A stretch of DNA of 64,000 bases from Saccharothrix sp. HUAS TT1 (GTDB lineage Bacteria; Actinomycetota; Actinomycetes; Mycobacteriales; Pseudonocardiaceae). The notes beneath the pieces are model-generated. The model was not told the origin of the DNA. It did no database searches and saw only the letters and a list, made by a program, of their open reading frames with translations. Where the stretch lies: the NCBI RefSeq assembly GCF_040744945.1, contig NZ_CP160453.1, positions 806,001-870,000 of the forward strand, read 5' to 3'. Positions 5,983-21,699 of the stretch are shown in pieces. Numbering within the stretch: the first letter of the stretch is position 1; the number at the start of each line of letters is the position of its first letter. The translations under genes were made by a program, and so were the position numbers.

Positions 5983-8900
5983 ATGCGGAGAGCCGCCCGA
6001 TCGCTAGCCGTGGTCGCCCTCCTCTCTTTAGCGACCGTCACCGCACCAACCACCGCCAACGCCACCGCCGACACCCCCACGCCCACCCCCACCGCCGCAG
6101 AACCGCGAACCGCCGCAGAACCGCGAACCACCGCTTTCACCCCGGACGACCACTGCCTCGGCCAGTGCCACGACATCCTCCCGCCCGGCCAGAACGGCAA
6201 CGCGACCCTCACCGACATCCTGGCCCACCAGGTCCTCGGCACCCGCCCCGCGCACTCGGCCGACCAGCTCGGCCGCTACGACTCCCTCGCCTCCGGCTAC
6301 ACCGGCCTGACCAACGACCAGCTGGGCGCGTTCTTCAACGACGCCTCCTTCGGCGTCCCCGCCGACCAGGTCGAGAGCACCATCAAGCCCCGCGCGGACG
6401 TCACGATCGTGCGCGACAAGGCCATCGGGATGCCGCACATCTACGGCACCACCCGGTCCGGCACCGAGTTCGGCGCGGGTTACGCCGCCGCCCAGGACCG
6501 CCTCTGGCTGATGGACCTGTTCCGCCACCTCGGTCGCGGCCAGCTGTCCGGGTTCGCCGGCGGCGCCGAGGGCAACCGGGCGCTGGAGCAGAGCTTCTAC
6601 AACCAGATCCCGTACACCGAGGCCGACCTCCAGGCGCAGATCGACTCGGTGGCGGCCAAGGGGCCGCGCGGCGCGCAGGCGTTCCAGGACGTGAAGGACT
6701 ACGTCGCGGGCATCAACGCCTACATCACCGCCTCGGTGAACAACCGGACCTTCCCCGGCGAGTACGTGCTGACCGGGCACGCCGACGCGATCACCAACTG
6801 GAACGACATCAAGCCGTTCCAGCCGACCGACCTGGTCGCCATCGCCGCCGTCGTCGGCGGGCTGTTCGGCGCGGGCGGCGGCGGCGAGGTGCAGAACGCG
6901 CTGGTGAAGCTGGCCGCGCAGAACCGCTACGGCGCCGAGGTCGGCGACCAGGTCTGGCGGTCGTTCCGGGAGCAGAACGACCCGGAGGCCGTCCTCACCC
7001 TGCACGACGGCCAGCGCTTCCCGTACGGCACGACCCCCGCTTCCCCCCAAGGCGTCGCACTGCCCGACGGCGGCGTCGTGACCCCGGAACCGGTGGTGTT
7101 CAACGAAAGCACCGCCCAAACACCATCCACAGTGGACGTGCCAGCCGATCTCAAGGCCGTCGAGGGCATCTTCGCCGACGGCGTCCTGCCCCGCGACCTG
7201 CTGAACAAGAAGCACGGCATGTCCAACGCCCTGGTCGTGTCGGCCCCGCACACCGACACCGGCAACCCGATCGCCGTCTGGGGACCGCAGACCGGCTACT
7301 TCGCCCCGCAGCTCCTCATGCTCCAGGAGCTGAACGGCCCGGGCCTGCGCTCCCGCGGCGTCTCGTTCGCCGGCGTCTCGATGTACGTGCAGCTCGGCCG
7401 CGGCGTCGACTACTCGTGGAGCGCGACGTCCGCCGGCCAGGACATCACCGACACCTACGCCGTCGAGCTGTGCGAGCCGAACGGCGCGCCCGCCAACGCC
7501 CGGTCGCTGCACTACCGCTACCACGGCGCGTGCCTGCCGATGGAACGCCTGGAGCGCAAGAACTCCTGGAAGCCCACGGTCGCCGACCCCACCCCCGCCG
7601 GCTCTTACACCCTGGTCATGCACCGCACCAAGTACGGCCTCGTCCAGAGCCGAGCCAAGGTCGACGGCAAGTTCGTCGCCTACACCTCCCTCCGCTCGAC
7701 CTACCTCCACGAGGTCGACTCGATCATCGGGTTCCAGGAGTTCAACGACCCCGACGCGATCACGTCGGCAGCCGCCTTCCAACGCGCCGCCGAGCACGTC
7801 GGCTACGCGTTCAACTGGTTCTACGTCGATTCGCGCGACACCGCGTACTTCAACTCCGGCGCGAACCCGGTGCGCAAGGCGACCGTCGACCCGCACCTGC
7901 CGGTGAAGGCCGAACCCGCCTACGAGTGGGAGGGCTGGAACGCCGACCGCAACACGGCCGCCTACACGCCGTTCGCGCAGCACCCGAATTCCACCAACCA
8001 GGACTACTACATCAGCTGGAACAACCGGCAGGCGCGCGACTTCTCGGCGTCCGGCTACGGCATGGGCTCGGTGCACCGCGGCGACCTGCTGGACGACCGG
8101 GTGCGGGCGCTGATCGCGAGCGGTCCGGTCAGCCGGGCGTCGCTGACCCGGGCGACGGCCGAGGCCGGTGTCGCCGACCTGCGGGCCGAGCAGGTGCTGC
8201 CGGACCTGCTGCGGGTGATCGACACAGCGGCGGTGACCGACCCGGCGCTGGCGGCGGTGGTCGGGCGGCTGCGCGACTGGCAGCGGTCCGGTTCGCTGCG
8301 CAAGGAGACCTCGCGCGGCAGCGGGGCGTACGGGCACGCCGAAGCGATCCGGGTGCTCGACGCGTGGTGGCCGCTGCTGGTCGAGGCGCAGTTCAAGCCC
8401 GGTCTCGGCGACGCGCTGTACGGGCAGCTGACCCGCGCCCTCCAGGTCGACGAACCACCCTCGGACACCCACGGCTCGGCCCCGCACAAGGGCTCGTCGT
8501 TCCAGAACGGCTGGTGGAGCTACGTCGACAAGGACCTGCGCGCCGTGCTCGGCGAGCGCGTCGACGGCGCGCTGGGCGCCCGCTACTGCGGCGGTGGCGC
8601 GGTGGCGGCGTGCCGCCAGGTGCTGCTGGACAGCCTGCGCGCCGCGGCGGCGACGCCGGCGACCTCGGTCTACCCGGGCGACGACTCGTGCGCCGCGGGT
8701 GACCAGTGGTGCGCCGACACCATCATCCACCGGGCCATGGGCGGCATCGCGCACGACAAGGTGAGCTGGCAGAACCGGCCCACCTACCAGCAGGTCGTCC
8801 AGTTCCCGTCCCGCCGCGGGACGAGCCTGGCGAACCTGGCCGCCGGCGCGACGGCCACCGCCAGCAGCCACGAGCGCGGCTGGTACCACTCGCCGCCGTC

Positions 8901-11116: not shown

Positions 11117-11189
11117 GCCCTCGTAGCTCAGGGGATAGAGCATCGGTTTCCTAAACCGTGTGTCGCAGGTTCGAATCCTGCCGGGGGCA
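11117..11189 (+). tRNA. tRNA-Arg (anticodon CCU)
   Basis: The cloverleaf folds: acceptor GCCCTCG pairs with CGGGGGC at 11182-11188, the D arm is GCTCAGGGGATAGAGC, the anticodon loop TTCCTAA has CCT at 11150-11152, and the T arm is CAGGTTCGAATCCTG. The discriminator base is A and CCA is not encoded. The 3' half, from the anticodon loop on, is duplicated at 21457, which marks this gene as the integration site of the element to its right. Confidence 0.95.
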
Positions 11190-11264
11190 CTCACCTTTCG
11201 CCGGGTGAATCAGGCCCTGGCCAGCGGAAACGCGGCCGGGGCTTGATCTTTTCCGGCAGTCGCC
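11148..11264. repeat. attL copy of the 117-bp direct repeat
   Basis: Base-for-base identical to 21457-21573. It starts TTCCTAAACC in the tRNA anticodon loop, covers the 3' half of tRNA-Arg and continues 75 bp past it. After one mismatch at 11265 the match goes on for about 11 more bases, then decays. Confidence 0.92.
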
Positions 11265-11389
11265 ATCAGCCGGAATCTGCCCCCGTCTGCCGGGGTTCAC
11301 GGACTGGTGACGGACTGGATCTACCCAATGCCTGCCCAAGCCGAAGGCCCTCGAACGATCGTCCGAGGGCCTGGCACACCGGCTGTCGA

Positions 11390-12757
11390 TCACGTGTCGA
11401 ACAGACCCTCGATGGTCTTGTTCACGGTCTCCCGCTGCCCGTCGACGCACTTGGCGTAGACCTTCAGGAGGACGTCCACCGAGTGACCTGCACGTTCAGC
11501 CACCTCCGGAGCCGGAACGCCCCCGTTCAGCCAGAGCGAGACTGCGGCGTGCCGAAGGTCGTACGGCCGTCCAGCCAGCGGAGAGGCCGCCTGCGCGGGC
11601 GTCAGGGCGTACTGACGCGCCTCTTCCCACACCCGGTAGTAGGTGGACGACGACACCACCCCTCCGCCGGGCGAGCGGAACAGGCGACCATCCGGCCCGG
11701 TCCCGAACCGGTCGAGGTGTTCGCGGAGCGCGGTGACGAGGACCGGAGGGATGGGGACCGACCGAACCTCCTTCCGGCCCCGATGCTTGAGCCCGCGCCG
11801 GTCGTGCACCTCCCCCGAGTCCGTCCACCGCTTCCCCGCCGCAGGCCGCGACTCACCGAGCACCAGGAGGCCCCAGCCCTCCTCTGGCAGGGTGCAATCG
11901 TCCTCGCGGAGCGCCAGGCCCTCAGCAGGGCGAGCAGCGGCGTAGTAGCCGGTGGCGAAGAACGCAGCCAGGTGCGCGCCCCGATCCAGGTTCCGCCGCC
12001 CGACGTACGTCACCGCCGTCAGCAGCCTGCCCACCTGGCCAGGGTTGGCCACCACACGAGGGTCAACCTGCTCGACCACCTTCACGACCTTGCGCTTCAC
12101 CCTGGTCAGCGGGTTGTCTGGGATCAGCTCCCGCTCAACCGCGTAGGCGAGCAGGTTGAACAGCACGGCCCGTTTCCGCTGGTAGACCGTGGCCGCCGCC
12201 GCCTTGCCGTCGAGCTTGGACGCAAGCGCATCCAAGAGCCCTCGAACAGCGACGGCGTCCGTGACGTCGTGCAGCGGACGAGAGTTCCGCGCGAGCCAGT
12301 CCACGACTCCCCGATCTTCGGCCGACAGCTCCGCGTCACGGGTAGTCGGAGGCAGCAGGCTCCTCGACAACACACTTCGCAGCTCCGCCGCCTGCGGTCG
12401 ACCAACCCCGTCCCGCACGAACACCGCACCAGCAGTCGCCAGAGCCTCCACAGTGCTACCCCGAGTCGTTGCGGCAGCGTCCGGCCACTTCATGTCCATG
12501 TAGGACTGTGAGAACTCCAGGAACGACAACGAATTCCGTCGGCGAAGCTCCGACACCGGCAACCCGGTCTCCACATCGAACGGTTCACCGTTGCGCGCCG
12601 CCTGGCTCAGCTCGGACAAGCGGCTGGTAGCCAGGGCCTTGGTCGCGTACCACTCGGAGTGCTCCCGCGTGTCCGTCCGCCACCGGACTGGATACGGCCG
12701 CTTCCTCCCCGCCCGCTTCTTGATCTCCCAGAACTTGACCTTGAACGTGGTGGTCAT
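11390..12757 (-). CDS. int: Tyrosine-recombinase integrase of the AICE
   Basis: A 455-residue site-specific recombinase that would integrate and excise the element at tRNA-Arg. Catalytic elements are visible in order: Arg in YYAAARPAEGLAL, a beta-hairpin Lys region around RRGLKHRGRKEVRSVPI, the DLRHAAVSLWLN box (His-x2-Arg region), RAGHSVDVLLKVY with the second His and the nucleophile Tyr, and a short C-terminus ending FDT. The N-terminus begins FKVKFWEIKKR, as in AICE integrases reading an arm-type DNA-binding domain. Its ATG overlaps the xis stop codon by 4 bp (ATGA), so translation is coupled. The 3' end lies about 125 bp from the att repeat, the usual position. Confidence 0.92.
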   Translation of the reverse strand: MTTTFKVKFWEIKKRAGRKRPYPVRWRTDTREHSEWYATKALATSRLSELSQAARNGEPFDVETGLPVSELRRRNSLSFLEFSQSYMDMKWPDAAATTRGSTVEALATAGAVFVRDGVGRPQAAELRSVLSRSLLPPTTRDAELSAEDRGVVDWLARNSRPLHDVTDAVAVRGLLDALASKLDGKAAAATVYQRKRAVLFNLLAYAVERELIPDNPLTRVKRKVVKVVEQVDPRVVANPGQVGRLLTAVTYVGRRNLDRGAHLAAFFATGYYAAARPAEGLALREDDCTLPEEGWGLLVLGESRPAAGKRWTDSGEVHDRRGLKHRGRKEVRSVPIPPVLVTALREHLDRFGTGPDGRLFRSPGGGVVSSSTYYRVWEEARQYALTPAQAASPLAGRPYDLRHAAVSLWLNGGVPAPEVAERAGHSVDVLLKVYAKCVDGQRETVNKTIEGLFDT

Positions 12758-12963
12758 GCCGCCGCCCGGTACAGGTCATCGAGCCAAGCGAGGAAGTCCA
12801 CCCGCTTGCACCGCAGCTCACCGTTGGGCAGCGTGAAGCACCGAGGCCCCTTCCCCGTCTGCCGCCACTTGTAGAACGTGTCCCGCGAGACCTCCCCGCC
12901 CAGGTCCTCCAGCATCTCCGGAACAGACATCAACTGAGCCAGCTCACGCACCTTGCCACTCAT
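12754..12963 (-). CDS. xis: Excisionase (Xis), HTH_17/MerR-like
   Basis: A 69-residue basic DNA-binding protein from the ATG at 12963. The core reads LMSVPEMLEDLGGEVSRDTFYKWRQ, then GPRCFTLPNGELRCKRVDFLAWL, the standard winged-helix pattern of AICE and phage excisionases. It directs Int toward excision by bending DNA at the attachment site. It overlaps int by 4 bp and follows repSA by 14 bp, the rep-xis-int order of pSAM2. Confidence 0.88.
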   Translation of the reverse strand: MSGKVRELAQLMSVPEMLEDLGGEVSRDTFYKWRQTGKGPRCFTLPNGELRCKRVDFLAWLDDLYRAAA

Positions 12964-12977
12964 CCCCGAACCCCCGT

Positions 12978-14582
12978 TTACGCAGCTTGAGCAGTTGCCG
13001 AATGATCTGGCGGACTGGCCGAGGCGAGCAGCGCCGCCGTGTACTCGGCCTTCCATCGACGCCGCTCCGCGACCGCCCGCAGCAGCAGGTGAGGTCTTGG
13101 GGGCACGTTCGGGTTACCGGGCCGCACGTTGTTCCAGACGACCCGTTTCGGCCGGTCATCCCCGGTGATCCCCACGTCGGCGAGCAGTTGCCGAACGAAC
13201 TTGAGCCGGTCGTGCTTGTGGTCGGCGAGCGACTTCCCGGACCACTTCCGCGACACCAGCACCCGCCGACCGGCCACGCCGAGGGTTGAGCGCTTGTGCG
13301 CCTTGCCCTTGCAGCGGCCAGGCTCCATCGACAGCCGAGCGCCCTTCGGTTGGACGCCGTAGAGCAGCCACACAGGGCACTGCGGCGAGCACGGCGTCAC
13401 AGCCAGCTCCGCGCAGAGCCGTTCGGCGTGATCCTCCTGGCGGCTGGTCTGGGCTTGATAGCACTCGCTGATGCTCTTGGTCAGGTACTTCGTCAGGTAG
13501 CCGATGTGCCGCCCGGCCTCTTCGGTGCCGCCGAGGATGCCCTTGGAGTGCACTTGCACCCCGAATCGCGCCACGTGCGCCGGACGCTCCACCCGGTCCA
13601 GCGCTTCGTCCCACGTTGGCAGCGGTTCACGCGTGGCCGGGTCTACGAACCCCTTCGCCCGCGCATCCCAGACCGGCCGGTTGTCCCCGCCGTACTTGAT
13701 CTCGTCATGGGCGGGCCACCACACCTGGTGATAGGTGGCCTCCGCGACCGCCCGCAGCTCCGCCCGCGAGATCGAACCTCGAACAGCCGCGTGCCAGTGC
13801 GGCGCCAGTCGCCTTTGCGGCTCGACGGTGGAGAAGTACTGCACATCCCACCCGACGCACCGCCGCAGGTTCTGCACGAACCGGTCCAGCAAGGCCGCGA
13901 AGTGCACCGCGTCCCGAGCCGCCCGCCGGTAGTCGTACCGGGCCGGGTCAACCGGAGTGCCGTCCGACCGCACCTTGCCGTAGCTGTCGAGCGTCAGCGT
14001 GAGGAACGTCGAGGGCTGGTACTTGCCCCCGAACACCCGCCCGACCGTGCGCTTCTGGACCGGCCGCCGAGGCAGGTTCGGCGCATCCTGCCGCCGCCTG
14101 GTCGACCGCTTCCGGGTGATCCGTGGACGGGCCTCCAGCGCCGGGAGCGAACCGCGGACTCCGAGCTGCCGAAGTTCCGCGTCAACCCCGGCGACCTCCT
14201 CCCGCACCTCCTCAGCACCGATCTCATCGCCCTCTTCGACGGCCTGCCGGTACACCTTCACCAGGTCGGCTCGGTACACGGCCAGCGCCCTCTGATCGTC
14301 ACCGGGAAGGTCCGGCGTGAAGTCGGGTTCCTCGGTCAGGTGCCATCCCTCGCGGCACTGCGCCATGCGCAACCTGCGGTTCTTCTCCGCGCAGGTGGGG
14401 CACACACTCGCCACCGTCGACCCACACGGAACGGGCACGATGTCCACTCGCCCGGTGTCCAGGTCGACCCGCTCCTTGGCCAACGGCCGGACACAGACGC
14501 CGTGCTCCTCAGCCACCGCCCGAGCCACGTCGAGCGCCGCCGGTTGCTTCATCCGGTCCGCCCGAGTCAGGTACTCGCTCAC
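12978..14582 (-). CDS. repSA: RepSA-type rolling-circle replication initiator
   Basis: A 534-residue protein from a GTG at 14582 that overlaps the traB stop (GTGA) and follows GGAGG. Features: a Cys pair CPTCAEKNRRLRMAQC near the N-terminus (zinc-ribbon-like), the PHWHAAVRG motif giving the HxH metal site near residue 260, and YLTKYLTKS with the putative nicking Tyr in a Y-x3-K arrangement, then Cys-rich CSPQCPVWLLYG. This layout is that of pSAM2 RepSA, which nicks the double-strand origin and starts rolling-circle replication after excision. Such origins are often inside or beside rep. Confidence 0.88.
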   Translation of the reverse strand: MSEYLTRADRMKQPAALDVARAVAEEHGVCVRPLAKERVDLDTGRVDIVPVPCGSTVASVCPTCAEKNRRLRMAQCREGWHLTEEPDFTPDLPGDDQRALAVYRADLVKVYRQAVEEGDEIGAEEVREEVAGVDAELRQLGVRGSLPALEARPRITRKRSTRRRQDAPNLPRRPVQKRTVGRVFGGKYQPSTFLTLTLDSYGKVRSDGTPVDPARYDYRRAARDAVHFAALLDRFVQNLRRCVGWDVQYFSTVEPQRRLAPHWHAAVRGSISRAELRAVAEATYHQVWWPAHDEIKYGGDNRPVWDARAKGFVDPATREPLPTWDEALDRVERPAHVARFGVQVHSKGILGGTEEAGRHIGYLTKYLTKSISECYQAQTSRQEDHAERLCAELAVTPCSPQCPVWLLYGVQPKGARLSMEPGRCKGKAHKRSTLGVAGRRVLVSRKWSGKSLADHKHDRLKFVRQLLADVGITGDDRPKRVVWNNVRPGNPNVPPRPHLLLRAVAERRRWKAEYTAALLASASPPDHSATAQAA

Positions 14583-16045
14583 GCCGCCACCTCCCCCGAG
14601 CCGTCCGGCCGAGTCGGGAAGTCGTGCACCTTCGCATCGGCCAGGAACACACCCAGCTCCACCAGGTCTGCGTCGGTGACGTGGAAGGCCCGAGCCCGCT
14701 CCGGCTCCCGCTGCCCGTCCTCCTTGACCCATGCCACCCCAGGCGTGTTCTCGCTGATCTCATGGGCCGCCGCGCCGCGCTGACAGACACCGTCCCCAAG
14801 GACCATGTCCACCTGTTGCGGCTCATCCAGCCGCAACGCCACGCGGGTGCTGAACAGGTGCCGGAACCCGACGACCTCCTTGCGCGGGTCCTGGACCAAG
14901 CCGACGACGGCGTACCCAGGTGCTCGCCCCTGTGAGGTGATGGTCTGGACAGCCCGAGCCGCGCGCTCCCGGAGCTGCTTGTCCGGCTGGTAGGCGATCA
15001 GGTCCGCCAGCTCGTCCACCACCAGGACCGTGAACGGCTCCCCCGTCGACCGCGCCCACAACCGCCGCACACCCCGATACCGCGTCGCCCGCTCCTTGAC
15101 CTCAGCGGCCACTTCCTCAAGCAGCGCAACGGCTTCCGGCCCGTTGTCGTACACGACACGGTCGAAGGCATCCGGGCATTGGCCCAGCTCCATCCCGCCC
15201 TTCGGGTCGATGCCCACCAGGCGCACCACGCCCGCACGGACTGCCGGAGCAAGCTGCCAGACGATCGACCACAACACCGAGCCCTTACCCGCACCGGGCA
15301 CCCCGACCACGAGCACCTGAGACCCGAGCAACCGCAGCCGCCAGGGCCTACCGGTCTCCGTCCGACCCACGACCACGCGCTTGAGATCCACCTCAGCGTC
15401 CACCAGCACAGGCACAGGCAGCGGACGCGCCAACGGGTCACGGTGAACGAAGTCCAACTCGATCACCCGAGGTCGCAACACCCGCACCCGACACGAGCGA
15501 GCACCGAACGAGTGCGCCAAGCCCTCCCGCCGCAGCTCCCACGCCTCCGGCGACTGGGCCGGAACCATCCGCACCCGAACCCGGTCCCGCCACCCCTCCG
15601 ACCGCACCCGCCACAGCTTCGGCCGGTACTCACGTCCACGATCCCGCTTGGCCAGGTCGGCGAGCCGCATCACCGACCGCCACTTCGGGACGTAGACCGT
15701 CGCCCGCCGCCACTCGATCACCAGCCGGTACCAGCCGTGCCGCAGGAACGACCGCCGATCCAGACCAGCCCAGATGGTCAACGCCGCCACCAGCGACGAC
15801 ACCGCCAGCACCAATGGCGAGAGCCCGAACCGCCACCAGCACCAGGCCGCCGACACCGGCACCACCGTGACCACCGGGTACCGGACCACGACGAGCACCA
15901 GGCGCACGACGCCGACCACCACCAGCCACACCAGCGCCACCAGGGCCGTGATCCACTTCGCCCTGCCCGGCACCAACACCCACCACGGCACCCGAGGCCG
16001 GACACCCTCGAACGGAGCCGGATCAACCCACTTCCCGCCGCCCAT
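14579..16045 (-). CDS. traB: TraB/TraSA FtsK-SpoIIIE conjugal DNA translocase
   Basis: The 488-residue protein starts at the ATG at 16045, inside the TGATG overlap with the preceding small gene. Two or three membrane segments fall in residues about 25-95, followed by the FtsK motor: Walker A GVPGAGKGSVLW and Walker B FTVLVVDELADL, with IDPKGGMEL and the SQGRAPGYAVVGLVQDPRKE block between and after. TraB is the only protein needed to move AICE double-stranded DNA between mycelia; it forms a hexameric membrane pore and recognises short repeats on the element. An upstream extension of this frame lacks a ribosome-binding site and overlaps the small gene, so it is not used. Confidence 0.9.
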   Translation of the reverse strand: MGGGKWVDPAPFEGVRPRVPWWVLVPGRAKWITALVALVWLVVVGVVRLVLVVVRYPVVTVVPVSAAWCWWRFGLSPLVLAVSSLVAALTIWAGLDRRSFLRHGWYRLVIEWRRATVYVPKWRSVMRLADLAKRDRGREYRPKLWRVRSEGWRDRVRVRMVPAQSPEAWELRREGLAHSFGARSCRVRVLRPRVIELDFVHRDPLARPLPVPVLVDAEVDLKRVVVGRTETGRPWRLRLLGSQVLVVGVPGAGKGSVLWSIVWQLAPAVRAGVVRLVGIDPKGGMELGQCPDAFDRVVYDNGPEAVALLEEVAAEVKERATRYRGVRRLWARSTGEPFTVLVVDELADLIAYQPDKQLRERAARAVQTITSQGRAPGYAVVGLVQDPRKEVVGFRHLFSTRVALRLDEPQQVDMVLGDGVCQRGAAAHEISENTPGVAWVKEDGQREPERARAFHVTDADLVELGVFLADAKVHDFPTRPDGSGEVAA

Positions 16046-16233
16046 CACGCACGCCCCACCGGGGCGAAGATCAGCGGCAACCAACCCAGACACGCACAGC
16101 ACACGAGCTGGTTCGGGGCATAGACACCGAACCGCTTGCACGCCCCACAGGGGCGACCGTTGGACAACTTCCACACGGACGGGGCATCGCGCCGACTTGA
16201 CGCACGCACCCCACGTACCGATAGCCTCGACAT
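16045..16233 (-). CDS. Small Cys-rich protein coupled to traB
   Basis: A 62-residue frame from an ATG at 16233 preceded by AAGGGA, ending in a TGATG overlap with traB. It holds CGAC (CxxC) and CCAC (a second Cys cluster 17 residues on), enough to form a small zinc ribbon, followed by a hydrophobic C-terminus (LGWLPLIFAPVG). Its position and coupling suggest a transfer accessory, but I do not recognise the family. Without the coupling I would have treated it as noise. Confidence 0.5.
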   Translation of the reverse strand: MSRLSVRGVRASSRRDAPSVWKLSNGRPCGACKRFGVYAPNQLVCCACLGWLPLIFAPVGRA

Positions 16234-16398
16234 GACCGGAATCCCTTGTGTGGTAACGAAAGCACGCGAAAGATCCGGTCGGTGCGTCGCCGGGAAACAG
16301 CTTCAGCCCACCAAGACTCGAACCTGTTTCCCGCGCGACCCCACCAACCAGCAATTCTGATCACTTGCCGTGCGAGCCCGACTCCACCGGCCGCACCG

Positions 16399-16929
16399 TC
16401 ACTCCTGGGTCTCGACCTCGAACAGGTCCTCGAAGTCGAATGGCGCGAGAGCCTTCAACGCGCCGCTGATGAACCGCCCACCAGGCCGCAGCTCACCGGC
16501 ACGCACCCGCTTCAGCGTGGACCGGTGAAGTCCCATCGCCTTCGCCAACGCGTAGTCCGAGCGGAACGCCGCCAACCGCATGGCCTTGGCGAACATGTCC
16601 TCACGCAGCCTGATCCCCTGGTTGAACTCGGCCACCACAGCCGCCTGCCGGCTCGCGGCACGAGCAGTGACCCCGGACGCGAGCGCATGCGCGACCTTCT
16701 CCGCCTTCTCCCGATGCAGCTCGGCGAGGAACCGCGCCTCCCGCCGCCGCCCCCGATCCACTTCCGCGATCCGCCGGTACACCTCCGACGACCGCCGATG
16801 GAAATCCAGCCACTGCACCTGAGCCGCCTCAGGCGAGGGCAACACCTTCACCAACGTGTCATGGGCCTGCCGAAGCGTCGTCGCCGAGCGCACAGCCGAC
16901 CACAACTCCTCCGAGGGGTTCACTCCCAC
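16399..16929 (-). CDS. AMED_5909-type protein with C-terminal HTH domain, AICE regulator
   Basis: The 176-residue protein has two parts. Residues about 15-100 match the AMED_5909-type helical family (TLRQAHDTLVKVLPSPEAAQ, then WLDFHRRSSEVYRRIAEVDR). Residues about 115-176 are an XRE-like HTH: RSDYALAKAM, HRSTLKRVRAGELRPG and FISGALKALAPFDFEDLFEV. The HTH half is strikingly like the stand-alone protein at 23770-24000. Probably a DNA-binding regulator of the AICE operon. Its ATG overlaps the preceding gene by 10 bp. A 165-bp stretch without a gene separates it from the Cys-rich peptide. Confidence 0.7.
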   Translation of the reverse strand: MGVNPSEELWSAVRSATTLRQAHDTLVKVLPSPEAAQVQWLDFHRRSSEVYRRIAEVDRGRRREARFLAELHREKAEKVAHALASGVTARAASRQAAVVAEFNQGIRLREDMFAKAMRLAAFRSDYALAKAMGLHRSTLKRVRAGELRPGGRFISGALKALAPFDFEDLFEVETQE

Positions 16930-17126
16930 TCATCCCCCACGATGCCCATCGCCTCCGCCGCCTGGGACAACGCCGACCGCATCCTGTTGATCGAATCCCG
17001 GTCGATCACCACCACGGCCGGGAAGGCGTTGCCGAAGCGCAGCTCCACCCGATCCGCGAACGTCATCGGAAGGGCCCGGATGGGCAGGTCGTCGGTCACG
17101 TGAAGCCGGACCATGTCCCCAGCCAT
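16920..17126 (-). CDS. Small AICE operon protein, unknown function
   Basis: A 68-residue acidic protein from the ATG at 17126 (MAGDMVRLHVTDDLPIRALP). It is predicted to be mostly beta strand followed by one helix (INRMRSALSQAAEAMGIV), with no membrane segment. It sits 2 bp after the SCO3933-type gene and overlaps the next gene, so it is an intact operon member. I do not recognise a family; similar short proteins are common between regulator and tra genes in AICEs. Confidence 0.6.
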   Translation of the reverse strand: MAGDMVRLHVTDDLPIRALPMTFADRVELRFGNAFPAVVVIDRDSINRMRSALSQAAEAMGIVGDEWE

Positions 17127-17128
17127 CG

Positions 17129-17581
17129 TCACGCCGCCTTGGACGCGGTCTTGACGACAACCGGCTTCATGCCCGAGGCCCGCAGGCTGTACCCCAGCTT
17201 CGCCCGACACCGATGCCGCTCACCCCCATGGCTCCCCCGACACGCCTTGTCGTCAATCCACGGCGTCACCGTCAACCCCTCGAACACCACCGGCCGCACA
17301 TCCGTCCCCGCGATCGCCTCCGGCGGCACCGGCTGATGAGGAGCCGCGATCTTCACCGTCACCACGGCGTCCGACTTCCGCTCCGCCGCCTGGTCGATCA
17401 CCAACACCGACCACACCAACAGCCCGGACTCCTTGTCCGTCTCCTGCGCAACCGGCAGCCCCTTCGCCCGCTCCTCCGCCGGCTGGAACCTGAGCACCGG
17501 TTCCACACCCATCACCAGCGCGCCACGGGGAAACACGAAGTCGTGCGACGTGGGGAGCCTGCTCCCACCTGAAATCGCCAC
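17129..17581 (-). CDS. SCO3933-family regulatory protein
   Basis: A 150-residue protein from the GTG at 17581, well placed after AGGAGA. The layout follows SCO3933/pSAM2-type regulators: a variable front, RFQPAEERAKGLPVAQETDKESGLLVWSVLV and then VTVKIAAP, VVFEGLTVTPWI, with a basic C-terminus. Unlike most members it carries a short Cys/His-containing insert (KACRGSHGGERHRC) that could bind zinc. It is the first gene of the long leftward operon (regulator, tra, rep, xis, int) and probably modulates replication or transfer. Confidence 0.75.
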   Translation of the reverse strand: MAISGGSRLPTSHDFVFPRGALVMGVEPVLRFQPAEERAKGLPVAQETDKESGLLVWSVLVIDQAAERKSDAVVTVKIAAPHQPVPPEAIAGTDVRPVVFEGLTVTPWIDDKACRGSHGGERHRCRAKLGYSLRASGMKPVVVKTASKAA

Positions 17582-17680
17582 AGCCGTTCTCCTGTCGTCA
17601 GCGTCGGCTGGACCTCTGGTCCAGCACCTTGACACCGACCACTTTCGACAGAAATCAGGGACGCCAGCACCGCAGGGCGG

Positions 17681-17720
17681 GACATCTAAAGACGTCCTTG
17701 ATACCTTGAAGACGTCCCGA
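17681..17720. promoter_or_regulatory. Divergent control region of the AICE with AAGACGTCC repeats
   Basis: Two direct copies of AAGACGTCC (17689-17697 and 17709-17717), 20 bp apart (two helical turns), flank TTGATACCTT. The region lies between the SCO3933-type operon and the XRE-DUF5919 gene, so it is the likely switch of the element and a plausible operator for the XRE protein. Confidence 0.5.
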
Positions 17721-17740
17721 CTCGTTCCACAGGGGGAACC

Positions 17741-18484
17741 GTGCCGAACCAACGCCTACGAGACTCGTTGCTGCGCAACGGTTTCGACCTCAACCAGGTG
17801 GCCAAAGCCACCGGTGTAGACCCCAAGACGGTCGAACGCTGGATCAACCTCGATCGCACCCCGTACCCCCGTCACCGGCGCACCATCGCGGCCATGGTCC
17901 GCGAGGCCGAGACCTACCTCTGGCCCAACGCACTCGCCCCGGATACCAAGAAGGAGATCACTCAATCGGAGGTCGTGCAGGTCTACCCACACCGCCACTC
18001 CGTCCCCCAGGAGCAGTGGACCCACCTGGTAGACCAGGCCCGTCTGAACATCTCGATCTTGATCTATTCGGGCATGTTCCTGACCGACAACCCGAGTCTG
18101 ATCAAGACCTTCCGCCAGAAGGCCGAGGCAGGCGTCAAGATCCGCCTACTCCTGGGCGACCCCGCCAGCCGCGAGGTAGCCCGCCGCAGTGAGGAAGAAG
18201 GCATCGGCAAGGGCACCCTCGCCGCCAAGGTCCGCAACGCCCTCGCGTTCTTCAAGCCACTCGCCGACACCGGCCACGCCGAGGTCCGCTGCCACCGCAC
18301 GACGCTCTACAACTCGATCTACCGCTTCGATGACGAGATGCTGGTCAACACCCACGTCCACGGCTTCATGGCAGCTCACGCCCCGGTCCTGCACCTGCGA
18401 CGCCTCTCCGGAGGCGACCTCTTTGAGACCTACGCCGAGAGCTTCCAGGGCGTCTGGGACGACGCCAAGCCACCCAAGTGGTAG
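17741..18484 (+). CDS. XRE-family regulator with C-terminal DUF5919/PLD-like domain
   Basis: The 247-residue protein starts at a GTG after AGGGGGAA. Residues 1-45 form an HTH (FDLNQVAKATGVDPKTVERWI). Residues about 80-245 are a DUF5919-like domain related to phospholipase D folds: LNISILIYSGMFL, VKIRLLLGDPAS, and a late block with RCHRTTLYNSIYRFDDEMLVNTHVHG, though a full HxKxxxxD motif is not visible. Such proteins often accompany Nudix and HD genes on actinobacterial elements. It probably controls the element's maintenance, possibly by sensing a nucleotide-like signal (inference). The Nudix gene starts 9 bp after its stop. Confidence 0.75.
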   Translation: MPNQRLRDSLLRNGFDLNQVAKATGVDPKTVERWINLDRTPYPRHRRTIAAMVREAETYLWPNALAPDTKKEITQSEVVQVYPHRHSVPQEQWTHLVDQARLNISILIYSGMFLTDNPSLIKTFRQKAEAGVKIRLLLGDPASREVARRSEEEGIGKGTLAAKVRNALAFFKPLADTGHAEVRCHRTTLYNSIYRFDDEMLVNTHVHGFMAAHAPVLHLRRLSGGDLFETYAESFQGVWDDAKPPKW

Positions 18485-18493
18485 GCAGGGGAC

Positions 18494-18967
18494 ATGGCGC
18501 GCACCGACCACTACAACGACCCCAACGCCCCCAAGGCGACCAACATCGTCGTAGCCGTAACCGCGTTCGTCCAGGACGACCAAGGCCGCCTACTCATGAT
18601 CCGCCGCACCGACAACGACCTCTACTCCATCCCCGGCGGAGCCCAAGACGTAGGCGAGACCATCGGCCACACCGTCATCCGAGAGGTCAAGGAAGAGACC
18701 GGCATCGACGTAGACCCCACCGACATCATCGGCGTCTACTCCAACCCGGCCCACGTCATCTCCTACACGGACGGCGAAGTCCGCCAAGAGTTCTCCATCT
18801 GCTTCCGCGCTCAACCCATCGGAGGCGAGCTGCGCACAAGCAACGAGTCCAGCGAAGTCCACTGGATAGCCCGCGAAGACCTCGAAGCCCTCAACATCCA
18901 CCCCTCAATCCGCCTCCGGATCGAACACGGCTTCGAACCGCGAAATACCCCCTACTTCGCCAAGTGA
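18494..18967 (+). CDS. Nudix hydrolase
   Basis: A 157-residue protein with a complete Nudix box: GAQDVGETIGHTVIREVKEETGIDV fits G-x5-E-x7-R-E-U-x-E-E-x-G-U, so the metal-binding glutamates are present. It hydrolyses a nucleoside diphosphate linked to some moiety; the substrate is unknown. Co-directional with XRE-DUF5919 at a 9-bp spacing, and its 3' end overlaps the convergent HD gene by 16 bp. pSAM2-type elements commonly carry a Nudix gene linked to their regulator. Confidence 0.9.
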   Translation: MARTDHYNDPNAPKATNIVVAVTAFVQDDQGRLLMIRRTDNDLYSIPGGAQDVGETIGHTVIREVKEETGIDVDPTDIIGVYSNPAHVISYTDGEVRQEFSICFRAQPIGGELRTSNESSEVHWIAREDLEALNIHPSIRLRIEHGFEPRNTPYFAK

Positions 18968-19527
18968 CCCATTCCAGCGGTCCGCAACCGCTCCTCAGTC
19001 CGCTCGACAGCACCTATCAGTTCGTCTTTCGCCTGATTGATGAACACGCTTACCAGATTCTGCGTGCCATACCTTTTCTGGATTTCCTCTATTCGATCGT
19101 GCACATTAGTCGAATCACCATCAGGCGAAGTAGTCATATCCGCCCACCACAACGCATCACGAACCGACGTACCTTCGTCAGGCCAAGCGTACAGTTCGGA
19201 TGACAAGCCCCGCAGTTCAGCTTCTCGATATGCGCACGAATGATGGGCAACAAGGGCACAGACACGTGGCGCGATTTGTTGATTCCGAAGAAACTTCGCG
19301 CCGTCGAGCGGATGAAACCCAGTCACTTTCACCTGGTCCGAATAGCCAATGTCATGAAGGATGGCCGCCGAAGCCAGGACATCAGCGTCCTCATCGGAAA
19401 ACACCTGGCGCACCGATCTCGCGCGACGGGCCACGCCAAGAACGTGCTTCCATCTACGAGGTAGCGAAACCAACATACTTTCCGCGATGCCATAGGCGCT
19501 ACCATAGAGATTTTCGCGTCCAGCCAT
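18952..19527 (-). CDS. HD-domain phosphohydrolase
   Basis: A 191-residue protein from the ATG at 19527, which has GGAG nine bases upstream. HD-domain metal ligands are in order: His in RRWKHVLGVARRA, His-Asp in AAILHDIGYSD, and a later His in ALVAHHSCAYREAE; DALWWADMTT supplies the final Asp. The closest general pattern is the small actinobacterial HD family near Nudix and XRE genes. It may act on a nucleotide, but the substrate is unknown. Last gene of the leftward AT-rich cargo cluster, 46 bp after the broken nuclease gene; base composition is lower in GC than the flanking chromosome. Confidence 0.8.
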   Translation of the reverse strand: MAGRENLYGSAYGIAESMLVSLPRRWKHVLGVARRARSVRQVFSDEDADVLASAAILHDIGYSDQVKVTGFHPLDGAKFLRNQQIAPRVCALVAHHSCAYREAELRGLSSELYAWPDEGTSVRDALWWADMTTSPDGDSTNVHDRIEEIQKRYGTQNLVSVFINQAKDELIGAVERTEERLRTAGMGHLAK

Positions 19528-19573
19528 AACCGCATACTCCGTTACCAGCACAAAGGACATCGACCGAGGTCGA

Positions 19574-20115
19574 CTATTCCCATTCGATATAGAACCGTTC
19601 GACTGCATCGACAATGAGGTCTGTAGGATCCTCACCACGCTCCTTCATGTGCAACATCTCCTTGAGGTGGTCTACGGTCAAGAATATGATTACCTTCCTA
19701 TCTTCACTATATATACTGTTCCTCTTAATGTGCGCTGCTTCGTTCGGCTCCTTACTCACAACCATCAACGCGAGTCGACCCATGGTCATAGTGAGGTAAT
19801 TTCGGGTTTGGTTTACCTCCCCTTCCCCACCTCGGAATTGTCGTAGTTCTTGAACTCGACAAGAATCATGCGAGCATCTAGCTCACGGTAAAGCATTCCC
19901 CAATGGTTCGAGCTGTCGTGATTCCGATTCGGAAAGATTGCATCTCGGCGGTCGATTCCAGAGTACGATCGCGCCTGAATGGTCGGACTAGTCAGTGGGG
20001 GCACTAGTAGATGACACAGAGCCTCTGTAGCCACCTCTTCAAACAGCTTCCACCCCGTCACACCCGGCGGAACGGCGTCGAGGCGATTTCGCAGGATCTC
20101 CTCGGCGCTCGCCAT
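19574..20115 (-). pseudogene. Restriction-endonuclease-fold protein with -1 frameshift
   Basis: The 5' frame (20115-19813) gives MASAEEILRNRLDAVPPG through ILVEFKNYDNSEVGKGR and stops. The adjacent frame continues with EVNQTRNYLTMTMGRLALMVVS and IIFLTVDHLKEMLHMKERGEDP to the stop at 19574. Joined across the GGGGAAGGGGAGG stretch near 19815-19830, they make one protein of about 180 residues with a PD-(D/E)xK-like core (Asp in SGIDRRD, Glu-x-Lys in VEFK). The joint is -1. It may be a real mutation, a sequencing error in a G run, or recoding; no canonical slippery heptamer is seen. Its ATG overlaps the TIR-nuclease stop (TGATG), which shows a functional unit of two nucleases. Confidence 0.65.
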
Positions 20116-20957
20116 CAGACTGTAGCCTTTGCATCGCCACCGAAGTATCGCATCACAATACTGGGGAACTGACGAAGTAGTCGTCTTAGCAAAATTCCGT
20201 CGAGGACAGTCAAACTGAGGTTTCGAGTACCTTCCAACTCCAGAAGATACTCCTTTGCCACCGACGTAAGATGAGCGTTGGTGACAAACAATCCACGCGT
20301 TCGCCCTCGTGCCAGTGAAACATACGCGGCCAACTGTCTAATAGCGGGCACGTTAACGCGCTGATGTGCATACAGCTTGGTATCTACGACCCACGACTCA
20401 GTTTCAAGCTGCCCGAAAGGGTCAACACGTTTATATGTTGCCCGGATGTCCACTTCGGGATCAACCCGATGCCTGACGTCCTCCAGTTCGAAGTCCAGTG
20501 CCCGCAGCAAATCGGCAACAAGATTCTCGAATTCCCGTGGTCCGATCTTGGAAAAGTCGACTGCAGAAAGTGCCTGAATCTGTCCTACCAGCACCTGAAC
20601 CCCGGAGACAAAGTTCCCACTCAGATCGATCCAGGCCCTGCCACGCAGACTGGGCGGCACTTCAGTTGCTTCAGCAAGTACCGGTATCAGTTCAGCTCCA
20701 CGCTTTTCAAGATCACGCGACAAAGCAGCTTCGATTTCGATAAACTGCTGAGACGAAGCCAGAGATTCAGGAGGGTATAGCAATACAACGACATCGCTAG
20801 CCCTAACGAATTGACCTATACTGGTGTTCCAATTCTGCCCAGTAGAGACTTCGCCTACGTCAGTTGTAACATCGATTCCGGCCTGCGTCAGCAATGCGGC
20901 TATACGTTGTACGACAGCACTGCTCTCGTGGGCGTAGCTCATGAACACTCTCGGCAC
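20115..20957 (-). CDS. TIR-domain protein fused to Mrr-like restriction endonuclease
   Basis: The 280-residue protein from a GTG at 20957 (an upstream ATG at 20993 is possible; neither has a clear ribosome-binding site). Residues 1-130 are a TIR/SEFIR-type domain: RVFMSYAHESS, GIDVTTDVGEV, ASDVVVLLYPPESL and QQFIEIEAAL, whose Glu (about 74 or 76) would be the NADase glutamate. Residues about 150-275 match Mrr-type PD-(D/E)xK nucleases: REFENLVADLLRALDFE, PEVDI, WVVDTKLY (Asp-x-Lys) and AIRQLAAYV. TIR domains in phage defence either degrade NAD or signal; joined to a nuclease it suggests sensing coupled to DNA cleavage (inference). The two-gene unit is AT-rich cargo of the AICE. Confidence 0.8.
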   Translation of the reverse strand: MPRVFMSYAHESSAVVQRIAALLTQAGIDVTTDVGEVSTGQNWNTSIGQFVRASDVVVLLYPPESLASSQQFIEIEAALSRDLEKRGAELIPVLAEATEVPPSLRGRAWIDLSGNFVSGVQVLVGQIQALSAVDFSKIGPREFENLVADLLRALDFELEDVRHRVDPEVDIRATYKRVDPFGQLETESWVVDTKLYAHQRVNVPAIRQLAAYVSLARGRTRGLFVTNAHLTSVAKEYLLELEGTRNLSLTVLDGILLRRLLRQFPSIVMRYFGGDAKATV

Positions 20958-21086
20958 GCAGCAACCGTAGCGCCTCAGAACTAACACCGCCATTGTCGAG
21001 CAGTGCAGATGTTGCCGAATTGGGCTCTACGGGATCAAGACCCGCGCCACCTGCGGCAGCGCGCGGCTGGGCAGGACGCACGTTGG

Positions 21087-21158
21087 CACCGACTCCCCGC
21101 ATCACGGCACGCCGGGCTCCCGCTTCGCTCCGCCCGTCGGCCGTGCGCGGAGTCGGTG
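21087..21158. repeat. Stem-loop near the right end of the AICE
   Basis: Perfect 10-bp arms (CACCGACTCC at 21087-21096 and its complement at 21149-21158) enclose 52 bases with partial inner pairing. It could be a single-strand origin, a TraB recognition region or a terminator; only the pairing is seen. The stretch 20958-21243 around it holds no gene I can support. Confidence 0.45.
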
Positions 21159-21243
21159 CACGTGGTCCGGAGGCGGCGCGCGAGGTGGTGGCGAGCTGGA
21201 GGCCGAGGAGTCCCGAGGTTCGCCAGTCGGGACGATCGCGCGG

Positions 21244-21459
21244 TCACGCAGCTACGGTGGGCCGGGCACGGCGATCGGCTGCCGCGACGGCTTCGCCGTC
21301 TTGCCAACGGGCCATGAGGTTGGCGAGGACCAAGGCGCTGGAGAGTGACAGCGCGAGGACTGCGGACTCCTCGCGGACCGGGTCGGCGAGGTGCTGGAGT
21401 TCAGGGCAGTGTTTGCGCAGGTCATGAGGTACGAGAGACCGCTTGCCCCACGAGCCTTC
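21244..21459 (-). pseudogene. C-terminal gene fragment truncated at the attR core
   Basis: A 71-codon open frame without a usable start runs from the in-frame TAG inside the att core (21460-21462) to TGA at 21244. It contains PHDLRKHCPELQHLADPVRE and SALVLANLMARWQDGEAVAAA, a helical pattern with actinobacterial codon use. The att repeat cuts its front; even in the excised circle the same core would precede it, so it looks like a dead remnant. Family not recognised. Confidence 0.3.
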
Positions 21460-21573
21460 CTAAACCGTGTGTCGCAGGTTCGAATCCTGCCGGGGGCACT
21501 CACCTTTCGCCGGGTGAATCAGGCCCTGGCCAGCGGAAACGCGGCCGGGGCTTGATCTTTTCCGGCAGTCGCC
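21457..21573. repeat. attR copy of the 117-bp direct repeat
   Basis: Identical to 11148-11264. It holds only the 3' half of tRNA-Arg (from TTCCTAAACC), without D arm or 5' acceptor, so it is not a functional tRNA. Beyond it the sequence resembles the integrase side of attL again, but decayed. Confidence 0.92.
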
Positions 21574-21699
21574 GTCAGCCGGAATCCGCCCCGTGCGCCG
21601 CCCTCCGCGGAACCACCGCCGAACGGCCGAACGCCCTGGGCTCCGCCCTCGTGGTCCGTCGACCTCGATCGCCGCCGCGCCGCGGTCGATCGTGGTCGG

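Follow-up and report, generated by a model that had tools for sequence, protein, structure and literature searches.

TIR domains and restriction nucleases usually serve as alternative effectors. A passage of PMC9122126 gives TIR, SIR2, and Mrr_cat as alternative N-termini of the STAND NTPases of P4-like satellites, and in PMC3710099 the N-terminal domains of AbiJ are listed with either TIR or Mrr as their partner. In the window analyzed here, the whole 64,000-nucleotide stretch of Saccharothrix sp. HUAS TT1 (NZ_CP160453.1, positions 806,001 to 870,000), the two are joined in one polypeptide that is conserved together with a second nuclease. This TIR-Mrr fusion (gene 1) and the overlapping second nuclease-fold gene (gene 2) lie on a mobile element and form a candidate anti-phage defence system, a role that we infer. 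Gene 1 carries both TIR and Mrr_cat, whereas they replace one another in the satellite proteins, and a STAND NTPase was matched in neither gene.

Comparison with described systems

In SPARTA and other Argonaute-associated TIR proteins, too, the TIR shares a chain with a domain related to nucleic acids and has a separately encoded partner. Their TIR fold is alike, and the Aga_TIR model of PADLOC matches the TIR of gene 1 (E 5.5e-8) over positions 6-133 of 430 only. Neither APAZ nor Argonaute, as known from SPARTA and short pAgo systems, was found in genes 1 and 2 or in their relatives at locus L003, which carry nuclease folds instead. Thoeris (ThsA/ThsB) likewise pairs a TIR protein with a partner. 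However, matches of gene 1 to ThsB were weak (best E 1.3e-4), the NCBIfam model ThcB4 scored 24 bits against a cut-off of 220, ThsA was absent among the six cargo proteins or pieces scanned, and the partner in the window has a nuclease fold.

On the nuclease side, an Mrr-like catalytic domain is common to gene 1 and the type IV restriction enzymes MspJI/AspBHI and Mrr. Where these have a reader of DNA or modified bases, gene 1 has a TIR, with no such reader in the Pfam scan, and its partner is a second nuclease. R.BspD6I is a heterodimeric restriction enzyme built of two unlike subunits that each cut one strand, the small one with the fold of gene 2 and the large one carrying the DNA-recognition part; gene 1 carries a TIR in its place.

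The nearest whole-domain relatives are phrog_31260, a phage protein family of unassigned function, and the PADLOC candidate PDC-M36A. phrog_31260 holds both nuclease domains in matching order (the chain of locus L040 aligns with it over the whole length, E 1.3e-93) and its C-terminal half is matched by gene 2 (E 2.1e-23), but it is a single chain without a TIR, whereas in the window the second domain has a gene of its own that overlaps gene 1. The C-terminal domain of PDC-M36A (302-450 of 457) is homologous to gene 2 (E 5.7e-17); its N-terminal 300 or so positions are absent from the window's pair and gene 1 is unmatched, so that the match covers positions 302-451 of 457 only and not the full length. 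The C-terminal Mrr-like part of PDC-S02 resembles residues 148-257 of gene 1 (E 8.4e-7), while positions 1-193 of its 334 are unmatched by gene 1 and a TIR is lacking.

The earlier note, made from the DNA letters, had proposed the combination as a candidate undescribed defence module, which holds in part. No named system in PADLOC, NCBIfam, or PHROGs matched the pair over its full length, and a system of TIR-Mrr plus nuclease was not found in the PMC literature, with subscription journals and preprints outside the scope; the name PDC-M36 occurred in no paper of the PMC literature searched. Qualifying the claim, the two nucleases also occur as a TIR-less single chain, and the gene 2 domain was already present as the C-terminal third of PDC-M36A.

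Architecture of the gene pair

Pfam places TIR_2 at residues 16-127 of gene 1 (about 20613-20948; E 5.7e-23, 82.2 bits, cut-off 28) and Mrr_cat, an Mrr-like PD-(D/E)xK domain, at residues 149-270 (about 20184-20549; E 2.8e-15, 56.9 bits, cut-off 21). With both domains above their cut-offs, the proposed fusion of a TIR and an Mrr-like nuclease in one chain is borne out. From the label TIR/SEFIR, TIR was kept, as TIR_2 is the best Pfam label and spans the whole domain, and SEFIR was rejected, as the bSEFIR model of PADLOC spans residues 13-70 only (E 1.9e-10). The PADLOC matches were each confined to one part of the protein, with bSEFIR, Aga_TIR, and SAVED-TIR over the TIR and PDC-S02 and a weak mREase_IV (E 9.6e-5) over the Mrr part. 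The GTG start of gene 1 at 20957 is also the start of the 280-residue database row P0004.

Gene 1 itself has the TIR residue Glu86 and the nuclease residues D182, D204, and K206. In its alignment (A1, the query plus 36 of the 45 rows found), E86 is kept in 36 of 37 rows, with D in the remaining one, and corresponds in alignment to the W-x-x-x-E region of TIRs with known structures; we take it to be the catalytic glutamate. Within the Mrr motif, D182 is present in 35 of the 37 rows and K206 in all of them, and residue 204 is E in 24, Q in 12, and D in one. The best structural matches of the TIR were SPARTA TIRs, tied with BtTir and Cat1, and the Mrr part was close to AF1548, AspBHI, and MspJI. 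A phmmer search of PDB with gene 1 gave zero matches, and the A1 profile found 15 PDB sequences, which aligned over their TIR parts.

The reading frame of gene 2 starts within the gene 1 stop codon, at position 20115. The overlap with the gene 1 stop claimed in the earlier note is therefore real; the single open gene is not, for gene 2 runs through two frames. The two pieces align to residues 1-101 and 97-180 of an intact 180-residue homologue and cover it from end to end, and they match PDC-M36A in succession (positions 303-369, then 375-451). The alignment of gene 2 (A2) was built from 45 of the 120 rows listed among 602 found with the intact relative as query. D55, E87, and K89 are invariant in 45 of 45 rows, and among residues invariant across the homologues 26 of 26 are kept in the first piece and 21 of 21 in the second. 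Because all 47 persist across both pieces, the break is either a recent event or an assembly error. A programmed frameshift was left as unlikely, as the intact relative at L003 requires none.

The PD-(D/E)xK-like fold predicted for the second gene was upheld as a FokI/BspD6I-like nuclease fold, assessed on an intact relative; the A2 profile had zero matches in PDB. A duplication linking the two nuclease domains is not claimed, because the comparison of the A1 and A2 profiles gave a probability of 2 percent.

Conservation of the pair

The A1 profile search returned 67 rows, 60 of them close relatives (E <=3.7e-61, the window's own row counted), with the next at 3e-11. Pairing was assessed for 59 TIR-Mrr rows and the 120 listed of the 602 gene 2 rows, using the longest contig of each row. 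Of these 59 rows, 22 have a contig exactly equal in size to that of a listed gene 2 row, while control contig sizes shifted by 1-50 gave a mean of 0.72 coincidences and a maximum of 4. All 22 lie between gene 2 ranks 5 and 60 of the 120, and the number is a lower bound, because just 120 of 602 gene 2 rows and longest contigs were usable. Both the profile matches and the pairing exceed chance by a wide margin; homologues of the two genes co-occur, and the TIR-Mrr gene and gene 2 form a conserved unit.

An intact pair with a 14-nt overlap occurs in Actinacidiphila epipremni (L003), the sole locus that the scan of named genomes gave. An integrase adjoins it, and a further Mrr nuclease gene lies upstream. 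In a set of 397 genomes from the window's order, only the window's own contained gene 1. At the level of the class, A1 matched in 42 of 394 genomes; these matches were regarded as different TIR or Mrr proteins, because the best outside the own genome (E 8.4e-129) reached just 3e-17. A2 was found in 3 of 394 class genomes and 4 of 390 genomes of the own family (the own genome counted in both), in 8 of 300 genomes of a further family (f15), in 3 of 67 genomes of one genus (g236), and in 0 of 35 genomes of another family (f32). Two plasmid records matched gene 1, over its TIR part only, the viral contigs gave zero A1 matches, and in phage records neither gene 1 nor the single chain described below was matched.

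Three further proteins combine the domains in other ways. P0028, a 458-residue TIR-Mrr relative, has a piece of an S-adenosylmethionine-dependent (SAM) methyltransferase (PF04672) at its front, which is either a genuine fusion or the product of gene calling that read through. P0185 is a 297-residue metagenome protein with Pfam TIR and Mrr_cat that matches the family at no better than E 3e-11, and is perhaps an independent TIR-Mrr fusion. A 312-residue minus-strand frame (G553:C263, 2644-3408) has its Mrr-part match upstream of its TIR-part match and is a reverse-order Mrr-TIR fusion outside the TIR-Mrr family.

Single-chain relatives without a TIR

Thirteen loci on viral contigs match gene 2, and in 10 of them the domain is the C-terminal half of a single protein of 338-410 residues; L049 is broken, and L050 and L051 stand outside the single-chain count. 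This chain matched 28 plasmid records, 27 of them over >=80 percent of its length, with Agrobacterium, Rhizobium, Sinorhizobium, Pseudorhizobium, and one Rhodococcus as hosts. Mrr_cat exceeded the Pfam cut-off in the N-terminal half of five of the six chains tested (L040, L041, L045, L053, and L054, not L043). The single-chain alignment (A3) comprised 8 of the 13 viral loci (without L046, L048, L049, L050, and L051) and two plasmid loci. Profile comparison linked its N-terminal half to the Mrr part of gene 1 (probability 97, E 3.4e-11) and its C-terminal half to gene 2 (E 4.8e-32). On pAt of Agrobacterium fabrum (L054, 3813-7095), a SIR2-like gene (24.3 bits, cut-off 24.5) and a small gene precede the single-chain nuclease.

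Six more chains (L067-L072) come from the family or order to which the window belongs and match the N-terminal half of the viral and plasmid chains with E 1e-6 (four) and 3e-8 (two). In Pfam only L072 passes the cut-off, by its whole-protein score and with no single stretch significant. A tree of the second domain (74 rows, leaving out L055, L058, L060, L062, and L073) set the single chains apart from stand-alone gene 2; most of its branchings had weak support, and its bootstrap had not settled.

Other partners of the gene 2 domain

The gene 2 domain is also C-terminal in PDC-M36A-type proteins identified by PADLOC (L037 and L038), and L061 and L063 carry it behind front parts that look PDC-M36A-like by eye. 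At L038 (2-2844) a PDC-M36A-type gene is followed by one small open reading frame and then by a TIR gene (PADLOC TIR-TM E 2.9e-38, TIR_2 E 6.7e-10), so that here a gene 2-domain nuclease and a TIR are neighbours, unfused. Gene 2 matches 202 plasmid records, mostly of Klebsiella and Escherichia. On a 110-kb IncFIB Citrobacter record the domain is the C-terminus of HypX, a P-loop protein (L052, 4477-6546; L073) and another candidate defence protein; a chain resembling HypX, judged by eye, occurs in an actinobacterial genome. The domain is modular and travels with immune-type partners. The listed gene 2 rows 61-120 (P0110-P0169) are stand-alone relatives, 63-81 percent identical and mostly metagenomic.

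Proposed mechanism and alternatives

The domains, the motif residues, the conserved pairing, the TIR-less single chains, and the carriage on mobile elements are consistent with a TIR-armed two-nuclease unit in which a nuclease heterodimer would cut foreign DNA and a TIR NADase would stop the infected cell, a reading to which we give an even chance (about 0.5). Most likely the Mrr-like domain of gene 1 and the FokI/BspD6I-like gene 2 protein would form the heterodimer, which would bind foreign DNA and cut it, one strand per nuclease domain. Binding or cutting would cluster the fused TIR domains, which would then hydrolyse nicotinamide adenine dinucleotide (NAD+), so that the infected cell is stopped. 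Held more tentatively, at clearly less than even odds, is the fuller proposal of a split heterodimeric restriction nuclease whose engagement of DNA would activate the fused TIR NADase and couple cutting and abortive infection in a new two-gene immune complex, with a core that also exists as one chain on viral contigs and plasmids and a second domain that is also joined to a P-loop ATPase, the PDC-M36A N-terminus, or TIR arms.

Several results weigh against a TIR-armed two-nuclease unit. Gene 2 is broken into two frames in this genome, 37 of the 59 TIR-Mrr relatives have no contig pairing, and gene 2 ranks 61-120 never pair with a TIR-Mrr contig. In addition, the acidic residue of the Mrr motif is replaced by Q in the 12 rows mentioned above, and L067-L072 resemble gene 1 poorly (probabilities 30 and 2) and are linked to it via intermediate chains only.

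The frame break also speaks for the possibility that the locus is decaying cargo, with gene 2 a pseudogene and the locus without present function in this strain. We rate this only somewhat short of even, and it is compatible with any reading of the family; since gene 2 is frame-broken, this copy may be inactive or just gene 1. The 47 intact family-invariant residues, however, point to a very recent break or an assembly error, and the family is conserved elsewhere.

The substitution by Q would suit a nuclease-fold pair that serves as DNA sensor or scaffold only, with the TIR NADase as sole effector in a SPARTA-like logic. Retention of the TIR glutamate in nearly all rows and the place of SPARTA TIRs among the top structural matches, level with BtTir and Cat1, agree with this, but K206 and the gene 2 triad D55/E87/K89 are kept in every aligned row. 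Moreover, TIR-less single chains on viral contigs and plasmids imply that the nucleases probably act by themselves, and we consider a mere sensor unlikely.

It is quite improbable that the pair is an ordinary type IV-like restriction enzyme that depends on modification, with a TIR that would only oligomerise and would leave NAD+ unconsumed; the closeness of the Mrr part to AF1548, AspBHI, and MspJI and the weak mREase_IV match speak for it, but Pfam finds neither a modified-base reader nor another DNA-reading domain, and the TIR glutamate is retained. Least probable is a toxin-antitoxin or element-maintenance pair rather than phage defence, for although the overlapping genes are carried by a mobile element and both NADases and nucleases may act as toxins, gene 2 has a conserved nuclease fold with its full motif, unlike a typical antitoxin, and the TIR-less relative L077 is a lone gene amid unrelated operons.

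For the preferred TIR-armed two-nuclease unit, the intact natural pair, the TIR-less one-chain relatives, and the clear motif residues make DNA cutting as the trigger of the TIR directly testable. The pair also offers a functional lead for phrog_31260, the C-terminal domain of PDC-M36A, and HypX of the 110-kb enterobacterial plasmid records.

The mobile element and its cargo

Two copies of a 136-nt direct repeat, differing by 2 mismatches, bound an element at 11148-21592 (Table 1). With its tRNA-flanking repeats, RepSA, an FtsK/TraB-like protein, and a probable excisionase and integrase, it is consistent with an integrative and conjugative element of actinomycetes (AICE). Toward the right end the cargo runs DUF5919, NUDIX, HD, gene 2, gene 1. 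The GC content (guanine plus cytosine) is 0.64-0.71 in the adjoining kilobases but drops to 0.52-0.54 at 19-21 kb. The earlier note's description of the pair as AT-rich cargo, placed where the mobile element has its right end, is confirmed.

Table 1. Coordinates of the gene pair and of the element that carries it.
Feature	Position	Strand	Remarks
Gene 1, TIR-Mrr fusion	20115..20993	-	ATG at 20993 gives 292 residues; GTG at 20957 gives 280 residues
Gene 2, first piece, 100 residues	19813..20115	-	Carries D55, D58, E87, K89 of second PD-(D/E)xK domain; in-frame stop at end
Gene 2, second piece, 84 residues, different frame	19574..19828	-	C-terminal part of second PD-(D/E)xK domain
tRNA-Arg (CCT), integration target	11117..11190	+	
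136-nt direct repeat, left copy	11148..11283	+	tRNA 3' end makes up the initial 43 nt
136-nt direct repeat, right copy	21457..21592	+	
Probable tyrosine integrase	11390..12757	-	PF00589 18.2 bits, below cut-off of 27.1
Small HTH_17 protein, probable excisionase	12754..13056	-	24.6 bits, below Pfam cut-off of 27
RepSA replication initiator (pSAM2 type)	12978..14732	-	E 3.7e-100, 336.6 bits, cut-off 34
FtsK/TraB-like transfer protein	14579..16354	-	FtsK_SpoIIIE 38.2 bits, cut-off 24
Helix-turn-helix (HTH) and DUF5919 protein, cargo	17741..18484	+	
NUDIX hydrolase, cargo	18494..18967	+	
HD-domain protein, cargo	18952..19638	-	Start of open reading frame overlaps gene 2

The real start of the HD-domain protein probably lies downstream of the start of its open reading frame. 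Among the TIR-less chains, L069 has FtsK and RepSA genes at a distance of 4 to 8 kb and is therefore on another AICE-type element. The chain at L067 adjoins a DUF5919-NUDIX-HD trio (6033-7938) whose members are 42, 60, and 44 percent identical to those at 17741-19638 in the window, so that one kind of cargo slot holds a TIR-armed two-gene form in one genome and a TIR-less one-chain form in another. The trio itself is thus common to both loci, each time beside a version of the two-nuclease module, and the NUDIX protein of the window also matches PDC-S07 of PADLOC (E 3.1e-11).
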